A DNA stretch of 22,572 nucleotides from a virus. The notes below the pieces were generated by a model. The model did not search any database. It saw nothing but the letters and a program-made list of their open reading frames with translations, and had not been told where the DNA came from. The first letter of the stretch is position 1; each line of letters opens with the position of its first letter. Shown here one piece after another: positions 15,019 through 20,924 of the stretch. Location of the stretch: the IMG/VR virus record IMGVR_UViG_3300032304_000351, positions 1 to 22,572 of that record; one strand, given 5' to 3'. A program made the position numbers and the translations under genes.

Positions 15019-15758
15019 TGAAAACTATTGTTTGCATTTCCGATTTGCAGGTGCCTTACCACGATGTAGAAGCAACCAAGGCTGTCGCTAGATTCATTAA
15101 GGCATACCAACCTGATACTGTTGTATCTTGTGGTGATGAAATGGATATGCAGACAATCTCGAAATGGAGTAAGGGAACTGAACTAGAGTTTGAACGCTCC
15201 ATTGGTCGTGATAGAGACCTAACTCGTCAAGTTCTATATGACTTAACTGTTGAGCACATGGTGCGTAGTAATCATACTGATAGATTATTCAACACTGTTG
15301 CTATGAGAGCACCAGGATTACTTGGCTTACCTGAATTACAATTAGAAAACTTTTTAGGTTTGAAAGAACTTGAGATACAATATCACGCTGATCCTTATGA
15401 ACTGGCTCCAGGTTGGCTTCTAATGCACGGAGATGAAGGCAACGTTCAACCTACTGCAGGAGCAACTGCTCTAGGCTTAGCCAAGCGTTCAGGTATGTCA
15501 GTAGTGTGCGGACACACGCACCGTATGGGGCTGACACATCAGACTCAAACATATCGTGGTGGCAAGCCACGCACAGTGTGGGGTATGGAACTCGGGAACC
15601 TAATGGATTATCGTAATGCAAAATATATTAAGGCTGGCTTGTTCACTTGGCAACAAGGCTTTGGTATCTTAAAGGTTGATGGTAAGACAGTAATACCTCA
15701 GTTAGTTCCAATTGTAAATAATTCATTCACCGTTGATGGAAAGACTTGGAAGTGGTAG
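15018..15758 (+). CDS. Calcineurin-like metallophosphoesterase (246 aa)
   Basis: The metal-binding motifs run in order: ISDLQVPYHD (D9, H15), CGDEMD (D40), VRSNHTDRL (N85, H86), LLMHGDEG (H137) and CGHTHRM (H166, H168). This is the full set expected for a two-metal phosphoesterase. The third block lacks the usual G before NH (SNHTDR rather than GNHD). Members in phages act as nucleotidases, DNA end-processing or RNA phosphatase enzymes. Substrate unknown here. It starts at ATG 15018 in a TAATG overlap with the HNH gene. Confidence 0.75.
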   Translation: MKTIVCISDLQVPYHDVEATKAVARFIKAYQPDTVVSCGDEMDMQTISKWSKGTELEFERSIGRDRDLTRQVLYDLTVEHMVRSNHTDRLFNTVAMRAPGLLGLPELQLENFLGLKELEIQYHADPYELAPGWLLMHGDEGNVQPTAGATALGLAKRSGMSVVCGHTHRMGLTHQTQTYRGGKPRTVWGMELGNLMDYRNAKYIKAGLFTWQQGFGILKVDGKTVIPQLVPIVNNSFTVDGKTWKW

Positions 15759-15766
15759 TAAAGGAA

Positions 15767-16435
15767 ATGATTGACTGGAATCGTATAGAGCCTTGGGATT
15801 ATGTAGTCGTTGGTGTGGCAGCCGAATACCATAAGAAGTATGACATGGTTGAACTCGAAGACATTAAGCAATCATTGTATCAGTGGTTTGCTGAACATCC
15901 TAACAAGTTAGATACTTGGGAAGCAATCGGCATGAAGGACGCTAAAAACCTTATATATCGCTCACTTCGTAACCAGGCCTTGGATTACTGCCAGCGGTGG
16001 AAGGCCAAGTCAATAGGCTACGAGGTGTCAGATAACTACTACTATGATACAGAATTAGTCGAAGCAATCTTGCCTTCAGTATTGCGTGGAGAGATTGGTG
16101 TTACCCATCAACTTAATCTAGGCGGTCCGTCTCGCCCATCCGCGCCTGCTGAAGGTGGTAACATTACAGTTATCATGATCGAAGTTGATTATGGTTATTG
16201 GAAATTAAATAAGGAAGATAGACGTATCCTATTCCTTAAGTATGCTGAGGCTATGCCATTTGCTGAGATAGCCAAGGAGTTGGATATACCTAGTGAAGAT
16301 GCCGCTAGAATGCGTTGTAACCGAGCCATTCGTAGATTGCTAAATCATATAGGTGGATACAAGCCTTACCGTGATGAAGATACAGTTGGCCAAGAAGAAG
16401 CAACTGAAGAAGTCCCAATAGTTGAACTAGAATAA
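15767..16435 (+). CDS. Sigma-factor-like HTH protein (222 aa)
   Basis: The C-terminal part, LNKEDRRILFLKYAEAMPFA followed by EIAKELDIPSEDAARMRCNR, is a sigma-region-4-type helix-turn-helix with a following positively charged helix (AIRRLLNHIG). The N-terminal half is helical and could match region 2 weakly. It may direct host polymerase to late promoters. The start is unsure: ATG 15767 has AAGGA too close; TTG 15746 or GTG 15752 upstream, overlapping the previous gene, have GGAAAG at better spacing. It is the last rightward gene before the convergent junction. Confidence 0.6.
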   Translation: MIDWNRIEPWDYVVVGVAAEYHKKYDMVELEDIKQSLYQWFAEHPNKLDTWEAIGMKDAKNLIYRSLRNQALDYCQRWKAKSIGYEVSDNYYYDTELVEAILPSVLRGEIGVTHQLNLGGPSRPSAPAEGGNITVIMIEVDYGYWKLNKEDRRILFLKYAEAMPFAEIAKELDIPSEDAARMRCNRAIRRLLNHIGGYKPYRDEDTVGQEEATEEVPIVELE

Positions 16436-16486: not shown

Positions 16487-16501
16487 GTATGAATTTCATA
16501 C
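16487..16501 (-). promoter_or_regulatory. Palindromic repeat, copy 1 of 9
   Basis: The leftward-sense sequence is GTATGAAATTCATAC, symmetric except for the central base. It lies between the stop of the 34-aa leftward gene and the leftward terminator, so it is downstream of all leftward genes and cannot be an ordinary promoter operator. The ATG inside it opens a 16-codon frame (MKFIQGLASISLAGPF) reading into the terminator. Confidence 0.85.
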
Positions 16502-17007: not shown

Positions 17008-17397
17008 TTAATACCACCCCTTCCTTATGTGATGCTTCCAGGCCTGACAAGGCGTGAGATATCTGTATTCGATATAGGATAACCCTCTATCAATCTGATA
17101 GGTAGGTTTGAGTTTAGGCGACATATCGAGTATCTGCGGTATGCCACCAGCATTCTTGCCCATTACTTTTACGTCATTGTATGCTTCCCTTCGCCAGTTT
17201 GATTCTCTTGTCCATAGTTTATCTAAGCAGGCCCATTGTTTATCTGCATATACTTGTATTTGATCCCTAGCATAAGCCTTACTATCTTCTACTGTCCATG
17301 CTCTAGTTTCTTTACTCTTGGGCTCACCAACTTTATTGACACCAAGAATAATGAATAAGATTGCTAGCATGAGTATTACAGGGCGTATGAATTTCAT
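17008..17397 (-). CDS. Signal-anchored lytic transglycosylase-like protein (129 aa)
   Basis: Residues 5-20 (RPVILMLAILFIILGV) form a membrane anchor or signal peptide. The domain contains WTRESNWRREAYN with catalytic E65, KNAGGIPQI and ITPCQAWKHH-like ending (YLTPCQAWKHHIRKGWY). E-S-x-W..A-x-N with a following AGGIPQ pattern is the goose-lysozyme/SLT-like core. C57 and C117 could form a disulphide outside the cell. It would cut glycan strands from the outer face of the membrane. The start ATG is inside palindrome copy 2, with AAGGAGG six bases upstream. Unlike the endolysin, it sits in the leftward arm with the regulator WhiB. Confidence 0.7.
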   Translation of the reverse strand: MKFIRPVILMLAILFIILGVNKVGEPKSKETRAWTVEDSKAYARDQIQVYADKQWACLDKLWTRESNWRREAYNDVKVMGKNAGGIPQILDMSPKLKPTYQIDRGLSYIEYRYLTPCQAWKHHIRKGWY

Positions 17398-17399
17398 AC
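17385..17399 (-). promoter_or_regulatory. Palindromic repeat, copy 2 of 9, containing a start codon
   Basis: GTATGAAATTCATAC in the leftward sense. Its ATG at 17397 is the start of the transglycosylase-like gene (MKFI..). AAGGAGG lies six bases before the ATG, so this start is well supported. A protein bound here would cover the start region of this gene, and the mRNA could also fold GTATG/CATAC around the start codon. Confidence 0.85.
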
Positions 17400-17400
17400 A

Positions 17401-17730
17401 CTACCTCCTTAGGTAAGGTTGTAACTTGTATAGCATATTAAGGGCATCCCCTTGGGGGGTGGACCTATGATGAGAATCAGGTTGCTCACCTGCTTCGATC
17501 AATCGTTCACCAGCCATAAGCCCGCCCCATATACCATAACTTCTATTCTCGAACTTCATGCCCTCTTCAAGGCATTCAGTTTTTACAGGGCAAGATTTAC
17601 ATATAGCCATAGCAACGTTACATTCTTTTGCTAATTGCTGTAACTTTTCTTTCATACCGAAAGTCCCACGACCTATTTCAGGGAACCATAAGTCGGGGTT
17701 ATCGTGTCCCCTACAAGCACCTTCTATCAT
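17401..17730 (-). CDS. whiB: WhiB-family iron-sulphur regulator (109 aa)
   Basis: The four WhiB cysteines are visible: the first in GACRGHDNPDLWFPE, then one in AKECN, and the pair plus last in ICKSCPVKTEC (CxxC-x5-C). The typical turn YGIWGGLMAGERL follows. These proteins bind a [4Fe-4S] cluster and work with the major sigma factor in Actinobacteria; phage WhiBs can block host septation or superinfection. ATG 17730 is chosen over 17745 because GGGGGG at seven bases serves it. A TATAAT lies upstream (17761-17766). Its last codons contain the ribosome-binding site of the next gene. Confidence 0.85.
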   Translation of the reverse strand: MIEGACRGHDNPDLWFPEIGRGTFGMKEKLQQLAKECNVAMAICKSCPVKTECLEEGMKFENRSYGIWGGLMAGERLIEAGEQPDSHHRSTPQGDALNMLYKLQPYLRR

Positions 17731-17760
17731 ATTAACACCCCCCATATATATATTAGTAGT

Positions 17761-17766
17761 ATTATA
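17761..17766 (-). promoter_or_regulatory. Possible -10 of a whiB promoter
   Basis: A perfect TATAAT on the minus strand ends about 30 bases before ATG 17730. No good -35 is found at 16-18 bases, so it may be activator-dependent or use an alternative sigma. The nested stem-loop 17781-17821 lies just upstream. Confidence 0.4.
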
Positions 17767-17780
17767 AGTAGCATTCCTGG

Positions 17781-17821
17781 TGGGCTAGCCCCGCCTAGTA
17801 TACCTAGGCAGAATAGGCCCA
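17781..17821. other. Nested stem-loop upstream of whiB
   Basis: An inner perfect hairpin GCCTAG (17793-17798) / CTAGGC (17804-17809) sits inside an outer stem TGGGCTA / TAGGCCCA with one bulge. No T-run follows, so it is not a clear terminator. It lies between the 37-aa gene and the -10 element of whiB and may be a processing site, attenuator or DNA-binding site. Within 17767-17839 I see no coding sequence. Confidence 0.45.
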
Positions 17822-17839
17822 TCGATAGTTTAATGAATC

Positions 17840-17953
17840 TCAATAAGCAGAATTCATTTCATCGTAGAGAATGTCAGGGTCGGGATAATCGAACCCACAT
17901 TCGCCATCTTCGTGAACTTCATCGCACATGCCACATTCTTCTTCGTCACTCAC
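17840..17953 (-). CDS. Tiny Cys-rich acidic protein (37 aa)
   Basis: It starts at GTG 17953 with AAGGAG six bases upstream, inside the end of the previous gene (overlap of 8 bases). It reads MSDEEECGMCDEVHEDGECG then FDYPDPDILYDEMNSAY. C7-x2-C10 and C19 suggest a metal knuckle, and the protein is strongly acidic. The GTG start with a correctly placed ribosome-binding site makes translation likely. Function unknown. Confidence 0.5.
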   Translation of the reverse strand: MSDEEECGMCDEVHEDGECGFDYPDPDILYDEMNSAY

Positions 17954-18221
17954 CTGTATCTCCTTCCGTAATGCAATCAACTATATACGGGAACTCGGGG
18001 TTAGTGGCCAGTTCTAGCAGGTCGGTAGGTGGAACACCATCCCATTCCATAACGTAGCCGTCTTGCATACTCCATCTTAGACGACCTTTATATGAGCGTT
18101 TTTCTTTATCAACAAAGAACATGGTTTTGACCCAGCCACTATATTCTACGAAGCGTAAGTCTACATCATATTTACTGGTGATATCTTTTATAGTTACTTC
18201 ATTTGCCTGTATGAAATTCAT
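17946..18221 (-). CDS. Hypothetical protein starting within a palindrome copy (91 aa)
   Basis: ATG 18221 is inside palindrome copy 3 (MNFIQ..), and AAGGAG lies upstream at a workable distance, with eight or so bases between. The protein is a small alpha/beta domain with KYDVDLRFVEYSGWVKTMFF and GRLRWSMQDGYVMEWDG, and an acidic C-terminus. No family recognised. It follows the amidotransferase gene by 12 bases, so it is probably in the same operon. Confidence 0.6.
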   Translation of the reverse strand: MNFIQANEVTIKDITSKYDVDLRFVEYSGWVKTMFFVDKEKRSYKGRLRWSMQDGYVMEWDGVPPTDLLELATNPEFPYIVDCITEGDTGE

Positions 18222-18223
18222 AC
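18209..18223 (-). promoter_or_regulatory. Palindromic repeat, copy 3 of 9, containing a start codon
   Basis: This is the only copy with the other central base: GTATGAATTTCATAC in the leftward sense. Its ATG at 18221 starts the 91-aa gene as MNFIQ. The single-base difference changes Lys to Asn in the encoded peptide while keeping the dyad. Confidence 0.85.
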
Positions 18224-18233
18224 ACCTTGCTCC

Positions 18234-19088
18234 TTACTTGTAGTAGTTGTGGTATTCGGTATACGGCTTGTCATAATCAAACCAAGTGTCATTCTGACCA
18301 CTAGCAGACCTTAAAGCGTAAGCGTGTTCATCCTTTTCGGGTAGATAGCATAGGCAGTCATCTTGATAAGTGCCGAAGCAATCATAGCATATCATACAGA
18401 ACTCACAGTAATACGGATTACCATCCTCTAAGAGGAAGGCACCACAGCCTGGACATTCCGTTTCGGTATCTAGTATGGATGCAGATGGGTCGGCCTTGGG
18501 CAGACCTAGATATTGCGACCAACTAGATTCCTTGTAAGTAGTATTACTCCACCAGATACCAGCATTGTCCCAGTGGCCAGATGATTCGTTGATGATATAG
18601 CAGGAATACTTGGCACGTGGATCGAGTGTGAGTATTGCTATCTTGCTACCACTGGCCCACTTGCTTGTAATATCCCAGATATGCTCGTTGTCGAGACCAT
18701 CCACGCCACCCATGAGTGGAAGTATGTCCTCGGCAAATACACGCGTATCACTACGCTTGTCATTGGCTGGAATCTTGATATCCAGTATCCCGTTGTGTGC
18801 GAGATAAGTTTGTGTCGAGCCACCCACAGGGAAGGGATGGCAGTTTTCTACGTTCTTGACACCATGCGTAGCATACCTAGCATGGAACATGGCATACCCA
18901 TTAGGGTATTGCTTGCGAACTGATAGGAACTCAGATATAACCTTCTTAGCAGACATACCGCGACCAGTGATAATCTCACCGTTGGCGATTACTGCATATC
19001 CGAATCCATGCGGGTTGTTACAAGAGGCACATTCCAAGTCCTTGCGCTTGGGTGTAGAGCCTGGCTCACATACTGCGAGTAAACACAT
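18234..19088 (-). CDS. Class II glutamine amidotransferase-like protein with C-terminal zinc fingers (284 aa)
   Basis: The Ntn-hydrolase signature is clear: N-terminal MCLLAV with C2 as nucleophile after Met removal, NPHGFGYAV, FHARYATHG, ENCHPFPVGG, LAHNGIL and SDTRVFAEDI. This domain releases ammonia from glutamine or cleaves amide bonds. ATG 19088 is chosen because C2 must follow Met and GGAG sits 10 bases upstream; a 90-base extension further upstream would bury C2. From about residue 210 come ECPGCGAFLLEDGNPYYCEF and CMICYDCFGTYQDDCLC, two or more zinc knuckles resembling those on the neighbouring amidoligase. The 10-base gap to that gene suggests one transcript and a joint pathway. Confidence 0.8.
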   Translation of the reverse strand: MCLLAVCEPGSTPKRKDLECASCNNPHGFGYAVIANGEIITGRGMSAKKVISEFLSVRKQYPNGYAMFHARYATHGVKNVENCHPFPVGGSTQTYLAHNGILDIKIPANDKRSDTRVFAEDILPLMGGVDGLDNEHIWDITSKWASGSKIAILTLDPRAKYSCYIINESSGHWDNAGIWWSNTTYKESSWSQYLGLPKADPSASILDTETECPGCGAFLLEDGNPYYCEFCMICYDCFGTYQDDCLCYLPEKDEHAYALRSASGQNDTWFDYDKPYTEYHNYYK

Positions 19089-19098
19089 AGTATATCTC

Positions 19099-20304
19099 CT
19101 ATTCTGTATCTGATTGAGTAGCGATGAACAATCTGTCCATGCGCGATATGAGATGAGCGTATGTATCCTTGTTATCATGGATATACTGTATGAATTTCAT
19201 ACGCTCTAGTGCACCATTTACTATCTGACCCACAGTAAGACTACGTGTGTATTCAACACTGGCATGTGCTAAATCTAACGCAGACTTGATAGTGTCAGAG
19301 TTCAGGGTGCTCCTAAAGATTCTCATCTCTAGGGTATTGCGATTGAGAGTATTTACGGCAGAGTAACGGTCTGAATGGTTATCACCATACCGCGCTAACT
19401 TATGCTTGAATGTTTTGACATACCTATCGCTCTCGGTGTCATAGCGTTGGATATCGTCAAACTTAGCCCATCTATCGGAACTACGGCCAGCCATCTTGGA
19501 ATAGAAGTCTGGATTAGCATAGACGAGTTGCAAGAATCGGTGGATATGAGCACCGTTATTGAAACCTGCCCTAGATAGATGGATGTGAAGGCCAGCAGTG
19601 CGAGCAGACCAAGCCTTCATGCGGAAGTCATTACGTAAGCCGTCAATCACTTCCCAAAACTCGGGAGCGTGATTCTTGAAGTAGTCATGGGTCATTGGGT
19701 GGGTTACAATCTCGAAGCCACACTCAAGTGAGCCATCAGATTTAAGATACGCTAAGCCATGATCCTCTAGGTTAGAAGCATACTCGGCAGCGTTGTTTCT
19801 AGTTTCGTATTCCCCATTGGGGGATTCGATTTCAATCTCCACGCCAAGATATAACACATCGGCAGGAGTAACAGGGTTCTCATTACTATTGTGGAACTTT
19901 AAGTCGGGTGTATAGGAATAGTCATGAATGAATCGTTCATCCTCTGCATCCATGCAACCGCAAGGGTCGTAGTAATACTCACCGCAACCTTCGCAATAAG
20001 TAAGAACATCCATCCAACACGCGTCACACCAAGTCCCGTTTCTGTCCTCGGCATAGTAGATGTCGCCAGTGTGCCACACTTCGCAATTATCACACCAACG
20101 GGCGTAATAATCAGAACATGAATCACACCATATAGCAGTATCATCTACCACTCGGAAGTCATCATCTACACTTCCGATTGTTTCGCAACGCTCACATATT
20201 CGGACACATTCGTGGCAGAGTATATCACCGTTGCTTGCTGTTTCAGTTTCATCGCTTACGCCCCTACTGCAACTTACGCAAGTAAGGACCTCATCAGTTT
20301 CCAT
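19099..20304 (-). CDS. Putative amidoligase (PF12224-like) with N-terminal Cys-rich zinc domain (401 aa)
   Basis: The N-terminal 115 residues hold many CxxC knuckles (TCVSCSRG, CHECVRICERCE, CDSCSDYYARWCDNC, CDACWMD, CEGCGEYYYDPCGC), forming several treble-clef or ring-like sites. The catalytic part shows LYLGVEIEIESPNGEYE, KSDGSLECGFEIVTHPMTHD, AGLHIHLSRAGFNNG and NTLEMRIFRSTLNSD, the motif series of the glutamine-synthetase-fold putative amidoligases. ATG 20304 has AAAGGA at six bases; ATG 20319 lacks one. Family members are known to lie next to amidotransferase-like thiol peptidases, matching the downstream gene. Its target is unknown. Palindrome copy 4 lies in frame at its 3' end. Confidence 0.75.
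   Translation of the reverse strand: METDEVLTCVSCSRGVSDETETASNGDILCHECVRICERCETIGSVDDDFRVVDDTAIWCDSCSDYYARWCDNCEVWHTGDIYYAEDRNGTWCDACWMDVLTYCEGCGEYYYDPCGCMDAEDERFIHDYSYTPDLKFHNSNENPVTPADVLYLGVEIEIESPNGEYETRNNAAEYASNLEDHGLAYLKSDGSLECGFEIVTHPMTHDYFKNHAPEFWEVIDGLRNDFRMKAWSARTAGLHIHLSRAGFNNGAHIHRFLQLVYANPDFYSKMAGRSSDRWAKFDDIQRYDTESDRYVKTFKHKLARYGDNHSDRYSAVNTLNRNTLEMRIFRSTLNSDTIKSALDLAHASVEYTRSLTVGQIVNGALERMKFIQYIHDNKDTYAHLISRMDRLFIATQSDTE
19188..19202 (-). promoter_or_regulatory. Palindromic repeat, copy 4 of 9, in frame inside the amidoligase gene
   Basis: GTATGAAATTCATAC in the leftward sense. It encodes MKFI within ..NGALERMKFIQYIHDNKD.., about 35 codons before the amidoligase stop. No ribosome-binding site precedes the internal ATG. 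This is the only copy fully inside a longer gene body. Confidence 0.85.
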
Positions 20305-20327
20305 ATCGTATCCTTTCATAAACTACC

Positions 20328-20342
20328 GTATGAATTTCATAC
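20328..20342 (-). promoter_or_regulatory. Palindromic repeat, copy 5 of 9
   Basis: GTATGAAATTCATAC in the leftward sense, 24 bases upstream of the amidoligase start. Its ATG opens a five-codon frame (MKFIR stop) that ends before the amidoligase start. It lies in the 68-base gap after the 56-aa gene. No promoter motif is clear nearby. Confidence 0.85.
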
Positions 20343-20372
20343 AGTAGGCAGTGCTTGATTACAGGAACCATA

Positions 20373-20543
20373 CTACACTACCGCCTTAGCATTGTCAATT
20401 ACCGCGTCCGATATATATGAGCGCAGGTTAGAGGCTTCGACTTGTAGTATGCCGAAGTCATTGCGCTTATGCGCTTCCTCTTGAAGGCGTAGTGCTTGAC
20501 GTATAACCTCGGCTTGTCTCTCGGTTAGTTGAAGTTCGATCAT
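20373..20543 (-). CDS. Small helical protein (56 aa)
   Basis: Minus-strand ATG 20543 to TAG 20373, with AAGGG nine bases upstream at the end of the 67-aa gene, whose stop is one base away. The sequence is MIELQLTERQAEVIRQALRL, then QEEAHKRNDFGILQVEASNL and RSYISDAVIDNAKAVV. It is a helical, probably coiled-coil protein. The ribosome-binding site and tight spacing make it credible. No family recognised. Confidence 0.55.
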   Translation of the reverse strand: MIELQLTERQAEVIRQALRLQEEAHKRNDFGILQVEASNLRSYISDAVIDNAKAVV

Positions 20544-20905: not shown

Positions 20906-20920
20906 GTATGAATTTCATAC
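20906..20920 (-). promoter_or_regulatory. Palindromic repeat, copy 6 of 9
   Basis: GTATGAAATTCATAC in the leftward sense, with TGT before and CA after, giving an extended near-symmetric core. It lies between the tRNA-like sequence (ends 20925) and the membrane protein gene. Its ATG opens MKFIH stop, a five-codon frame ending upstream of the gene's ribosome-binding site. Confidence 0.85.
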
Positions 20921-20924
20921 ACAG

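Follow-up and report, generated by a model that had tools for sequence, protein, structure and literature searches.

Dyads dispersed along one gene arm of lytic-looking phages are likely operators of a 223-residue protein and follow one of its residues

The leftward gene arm of the virus record analysed here carries nine copies of one dyad, which comparison of related sequences marks as likely dispersed operators of a phage-encoded global regulator. The candidate regulator is the 223-aa product of the first gene of that arm (21811..22482, minus strand). Across relatives, the letters of the dyad appear to follow one residue of this phage protein, which amounts, at the level of sequence, to a partly readable protein-DNA code.

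The window, that is, the whole stretch of DNA analysed, is a 22.6-kb virus record (IMGVR_UViG_3300032304_000351). Its rightward genes end at a sigma-like gene (15746-16435), and the leftward arm then spans 22482 to about 16500 (about 16.4-22.5 kb); in whole relatives (~40 kb), this arm lies between the terminase and the sigma-like gene. The arm carries a WhiB-like gene (PF02467). Judged by the helicase (79%), the closest isolated relatives are the two phages obtained on Candidatus Planktophila; both caused lysis of their host and were presented as the first Nanopelagicales phages brought into culture (PMC10202952). Because these nearest isolated relatives infect Candidatus Planktophila, the host of the window's phage is probably a freshwater actinobacterium. 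Searches for a tyrosine integrase, a serine recombinase or ParA (PF00589, PF00239, PF13614) returned none in 14 relatives, with positive controls and in records that are not certified complete, and a search with the sigma-like protein found no relative in species genomes. On these grounds a temperate lifestyle was rejected, and the phages of the dyad group look lytic. Within the arm, the amidoligase gene (PF12224) is adjoined by a class-II glutamine amidotransferase-like gene; the products of these two genes (18234-20319 together) may act on peptides, of the cell wall or otherwise, as modifying enzymes.

Computation defines the set of sites sharply. Exact copies of GTATGAAWTTCATAC occur nine times in the window, all inside the leftward arm and none elsewhere. 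The dyad has the perfect form GTATGAA-W-TTCATAC of 15 bp; with up to three mismatches allowed, 0.98 matches were expected, and no shuffle reached nine. Six of the copies precede genes or follow a stop codon or terminator. Copy 1 (16487..16501, GTATGAATTTCATAC) is flanked by the stop of a 34-aa ORF, the last leftward gene, and by a terminator-like hairpin; copy 8 (21713..21727) comes directly after the hairpin, also terminator-like, that belongs to the 223-aa gene. Copies 5 (20328..20342), 6 (20906..20920), 7 (21477..21491) and 9 (22510..22524) are located upstream of the amidoligase gene, a small ORF, the ORF at 21289-21453 and, at a distance of ~30 bp, the candidate regulator gene, respectively. 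Copy 4 (19188..19202) is embedded in the amidoligase ORF at its 3' end; the glutamine-amidotransferase gene follows ~100 bp further downstream, and relatives with other dyad letters keep a site at this place. Copies 2 (17385..17399, reading GTATGAAATTCATAC on the minus strand) and 3 (18209..18223, reading GTATGAATTTCATAC) overlap the start codons of two genes and are taken up below. Copy 6 is directly downstream of a conserved sequence resembling a tRNA T-arm (GGTTCGATTCCTG plus an acceptor-like end, 20920-20980), which is also conserved in relatives having other dyads; a tRNA at this place was rejected, as ARAGORN and Rfam call none.

Close relatives have the dyad of the window, and more distant ones have other dyads in the same arm. 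In total, about 20 dyad types were found in about 80 loci, always in this arm, including GTATTAA, GCCGTAT, GTCTGA, GTACGAT, GTAAGAT, GTCCGAT, GTTTGG and GGTCGG. The dyads are perfect, with arms of 6-8 bp, and mostly number 4-11 per genome. Between relatives they switch as a whole set, with some places kept, for example the site at the 3' end of the amidoligase gene. Because the whole set changes together, and at kept places, a trans-acting reader is indicated. Two further kinds of site were observed: hybrid dyads in L161, L292, L341 and L372, in which one half-site is of another type (e.g. GTATGATAATCGTAC) and which are possibly sites caught mid-switch, and dyads of even spacing in L331, L346 and L349 (GTTTGG) and in L290 (GTCGGG), which have no central base and half-sites one base further apart.

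The dyads are coupled to the family of the 223-aa protein, as computed over 81 non-redundant loci, namely those spanning the sigma-like gene to the terminase. Protein and dyads occur together in 56 of these loci and both are missing from 23; two have the protein only, one of them with three dyad copies, and none has dyads only. All dyads of these loci lie inside the arm (441/441). The association gives a Fisher p of 3e-18, a value that overstates independence because the loci are related. A clade comprising L164, L177, L205, L229, L232 and others has the same arm genes without the 223-aa protein and without a repeated dyad. The isolated relative ct2KA10 (LanE43-AprE7) is likewise without the protein and without dyads in the 25.9 kb examined.

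Within the half-site, base 3 is matched to a single position of the protein. Residue 93 carries all information about this base (MI 1.51 of 1.51 bits, z 15.2); for five control genes of these loci, the top column per gene gives z 3.6-8.4 and MI 0.34-0.82. Where base 3 is A, residue 93 is Gln in 33 cases and His in one; where it is C, the residue is Glu (14) or Asp (4), accounting for 18/18; and where it is T, it is Pro, Ser, Lys, Gly, Ala or Asn (15/15). Residue 69 follows base 1, with Arg or Lys accompanying G (65/65) and Glu accompanying A (2/2). The residue-93 rule predicted base 3 for 7/7 regulators fetched later, one of which is just 28% identical to any earlier member. When the tree is built with the contact columns removed, base 3 and the class of residue 93 change seven times each and every independent pair agrees; with so few independent base-3 switches (7), the sign test on the tree is unable to reach 0.05. 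A recent switch is shown by one sister pair, L318 with GTTGGA and Pro93 and L319 with GCAGGA and Gln93. At bases 2, 4 and 5, couplings were not clearly above those of the control genes, and residues 68, 70, 118 and 130, whose coupling to bases 2 and 4 had looked strong, were set aside for that reason.

The 223-aa protein does not fall into a known family. Pfam and PHROGs returned no family for these proteins, with stray single-member matches only, tblastn with three members found no homologs in isolated phages, and a PDB sequence search gave nothing significant. A structure model based on 65 members (pLDDT 84) has a helical domain at 35-150 (~95), which is the predicted DNA-binding domain, a loose linker and a C-terminal helical hairpin (176-219). 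The model places the predicted contact residues, 69 and 93, close to the N-terminal ends of consecutive helices that a long loop connects. Foldseek gave no match at E 0.001 or better and one viral protein of unknown name at E 1.5e-3.

Dyads and promoters of the arm stand in a recurrent geometry. Strict promoters number 103 on the arm strand and 18 on the other, and 84 of the 103 have a dyad within 60 bp, as opposed to 17% of random places; none of these dyads lies within 30 bp, and none overlaps the promoter core. Dyads are usually centred 40-50 bp downstream of the -10 box, at about +30 of the transcript, and a second dyad is often present 46-54 bp upstream of the -10. Two copies in the window fit this geometry: the centre of copy 5 is 40 bp downstream of a promoter-like TTGACA-17-TAGTAT (20370..20398, minus strand; p 0.003 against random arm positions), and copy 7 follows a promoter-like TTGCAT-17-TATTAT (21531..21559, minus strand; p 0.032). 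A promoter above the 95th percentile of random places accompanies only 114/461 dyads, and many sites therefore have no link to a promoter. A dyad is found just upstream of the regulator gene in 45/57 loci, and this position suggests autoregulation, that is, control by the regulator of its own gene.

These observations are consistent with a mechanism in which a dimer of the 223-aa protein would read the two half-sites, with two helix N-termini (~67-72 and ~89-93) entering the major groove. Residue 93 would read base 3, Gln selecting A, Glu or Asp selecting C, and small residues, Pro or Lys selecting T, and Arg69 would read the G at base 1. At arm promoters, the protein would be bound ~30 bp past the start of transcription, often with a second copy upstream; it would also occupy the site at its own gene and extra sites within genes or behind them. 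Bound in this way it would repress or roadblock the early arm, the regulator gene included. We infer dimerisation, direct binding and repression rather than activation, and the action is most likely repression, partly by roadblock. An activator or antiterminator of the arm promoters seems unlikely. Such a role would suit the dyads that many relatives have ~46-54 bp upstream of the -10, near the usual activator distance, and an arm that may need ordered switching on. However, the commonest place of the dyad is downstream of the transcription start, many promoters have that site alone, the arm promoters possess strict -35 and -10 boxes, and dyads also occur inside genes and after the last gene.

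We consider it very unlikely that the dyads serve mainly to organise or partition DNA in the manner of parS, or to support replication, with regulation being secondary. This alternative draws on the spread of the dyads over 6 kb and on a faint resemblance of the predicted domain to the DNA-binding domains of ParB, KorB and SopB, which recur among the weak structural matches, none of them significant. In whole-domain alignments with VIA-align, Z was 4.4 for KorB (101 residues), 3.9 for ParB and 3.7 for SopB, below the level that means kinship, and we treat this modelled likeness as a weak lead rather than as membership. Against partitioning, no ParA-type ATPase was found in the 14 relatives, none of the 65 members matched a ParB family, including the N-terminal (CTPase) domain, at E 0.01 in Pfam, and the spacing of the dyads is set by genes and promoters and does not form a clustered array.

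Copies 2 and 3 had first drawn attention through their position. As the preliminary description had seen in the letters and ORFs, they hold the ATG of the MKFI gene (17008..17397, minus strand; 129 aa, transglycosylase-like, phrog_12661, E 1e-16) and of the MNFI gene (17946..18221, minus strand; 91 aa, without known family). It had also rightly noted that both genes have good ribosome-binding sites, and that the two copies differ at the central base, so that the codon reads Lys in one and Asn in the other with the dyad intact. The ribosome-binding sites are AAGGAGG 6-7 bases upstream for MKFI and AAGGAG ~8 bases upstream for MNFI, and the central bases are A and T. Copy 4 likewise encodes MKFI, but within the amidoligase ORF. 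From the overlap of dyad and start it had been supposed that DNA binding and translation could be coupled. DNA binding is strongly supported, the letters of the dyad co-varying across relatives and matching one protein residue, whereas translation coupling was rejected as the general function of the dyad. A start (counted when preceded by a Shine-Dalgarno sequence and opening an ORF of at least 40 aa) is held by 8/523 dyads examined in relatives, all at the MKFI and MNFI places and all in the window's clade. In most relatives the same genes begin at their own ATG without a dyad; an MKFI homolog is recognisable in 34 loci, 28 of which lack a dyad near the start of that gene, and in L131 and L130 ~60 bp separate the dyad from the start of the 91-aa gene downstream of it.

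It had further been suggested that GTATG and CATAC pair in the mRNA and hide the AUG. The 19-nt RNAs at the two starts are predicted to fold at -7.1 and -5.6 kcal/mol, so that a hairpin could form, and either a hairpin or bound protein could act locally on the MKFI and MNFI genes. As a conserved feature the RNA hairpin was rejected, since pairing is broken in 17 of the 28 dyads with a single mismatch. That the dyad works at the start codon, through a hairpin in the mRNA or a DNA-bound block that couples binding to translation, is thus highly improbable. This idea can point to the ATG and good ribosome-binding site at both start dyads, to the predicted folding energies, and to L160, where the MKFI-start site is a hybrid whose left half GTATGAA retains the ATG while the other half is of a new type, with RNA pairing retained through one wobble. 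The small number of dyad-held starts, confined to two homologous places in one clade, the many MKFI homologs without a dyad at the start and the imperfect sites that lose pairing speak against it, as does the phage represented by L132 and L162 (GTATTAA type), in which the dyad at the MKFI start is kept but has lost its ATG. The dyad there is GTATTAAATTAATAC, at unchanged Shine-Dalgarno spacing, so the codon at this start is ATT, a rare start codon, if used. Near the MKFI start of L132 there is no in-frame ATG, GTG or TTG with a Shine-Dalgarno sequence, and the start of the MKFI homolog (L132:9985-10030) is apparently the ATT inside the dyad. The overlap is incidental, with the start codon a passenger, and is a quirk of one small phage lineage, which could put sites on two gene starts because the GTATGAA half-site contains ATG. 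Operator and start codon nevertheless constrain each other, and the constraint runs in the reverse direction too: a gene of one relative has seemingly lost its ATG to the operator.

That another reader of the dyads, such as the WhiB-like or sigma-like protein of the same genomes or a host factor, is at work and the 223-aa gene merely hitchhikes is hardly credible, because the 23 loci lacking the 223-aa protein have the sigma-like gene and no dyad set, ct2KA10, reported with whiB and sigma-70 genes (PMC10202952), has neither protein nor dyads in the stretch read, and the coupling of residue 93 to base 3 is not matched by any WhiB or sigma column.

Dispersed operators of the 223-aa protein, as we read the dyads, have counterparts in known systems. 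In Cluster A mycobacteriophages (L5, Bxb1, TipsytheTRex), many copies of one site, the stoperator, are spread across the genome in short intergenic gaps and gene ends, mostly away from promoters, and the stoperator sequence differs between related phages, following the repressor (PMC6550527). In the solved Cluster A repressor, both helices of a variant helix-turn-helix enter the major groove (PMC9283540). The dyads described here resemble stoperators in being dispersed, in intergenic gaps and gene ends and mostly away from promoters. They differ in that Cluster A sites are asymmetric 13-14 bp sequences (13-mers), read by a monomer in one orientation and present at 20-30 per genome, whereas ours are perfect dyads at mostly 4-11 per genome. 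Cluster A phages are temperate, while our sites are confined to one arm in phages for which no integrase was found in 14 relatives; because they look lytic, these phages are set apart from Cluster A despite the similar layout. Alignment by hhalign against six repressors (L5 gp71 / Bxb1 gp69) revealed no homology (probability 0.2%, E 0.34), and a short HGEY/HAQY match to a Cluster A repressor was discarded, as it lies in a different helix. KorB of plasmid RK2 represses several operons from dispersed OB operators, both near promoters and distant from them (PMC11790492). The layout proposed here is similar, with one candidate protein and dispersed operators near promoters and far, though the structural match is weak, and KorB is a ParB-type CTPase, while Pfam finds no ParB N-terminal domain in the 223-aa protein. 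Finally, the SAS/ESAS repeats of Cluster K mycobacteriophages are associated with translation starts, and some of them contain inverted repeats (PMC3203893); SAS occur at 11-19 starts per genome, whereas here the overlap with starts concerns only two of nine dyads and is not conserved among relatives.

Taken more broadly, the evidence leaves us evenly divided over a larger proposal: that the 223-aa proteins form an undescribed family of global regulators in lytic-looking phages, each with private dispersed operators, whose specificity has been re-written many times by a simple residue-to-base code, with the site sets re-written alongside. If true, coexisting phages of one host group would run mutually blind regulatory networks. 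A further question is why a dispersed operator network, of a sort familiar from temperate phages, should be maintained in phages in which no integrase is detectable. About twenty natural versions of one regulator and its operators, all kept in register, would be at hand, together with a partly readable code (Gln for A, Glu or Asp for C) in a protein without known family. They would provide a natural series for asking how a genome alters eight to eleven operators when its regulator changes.
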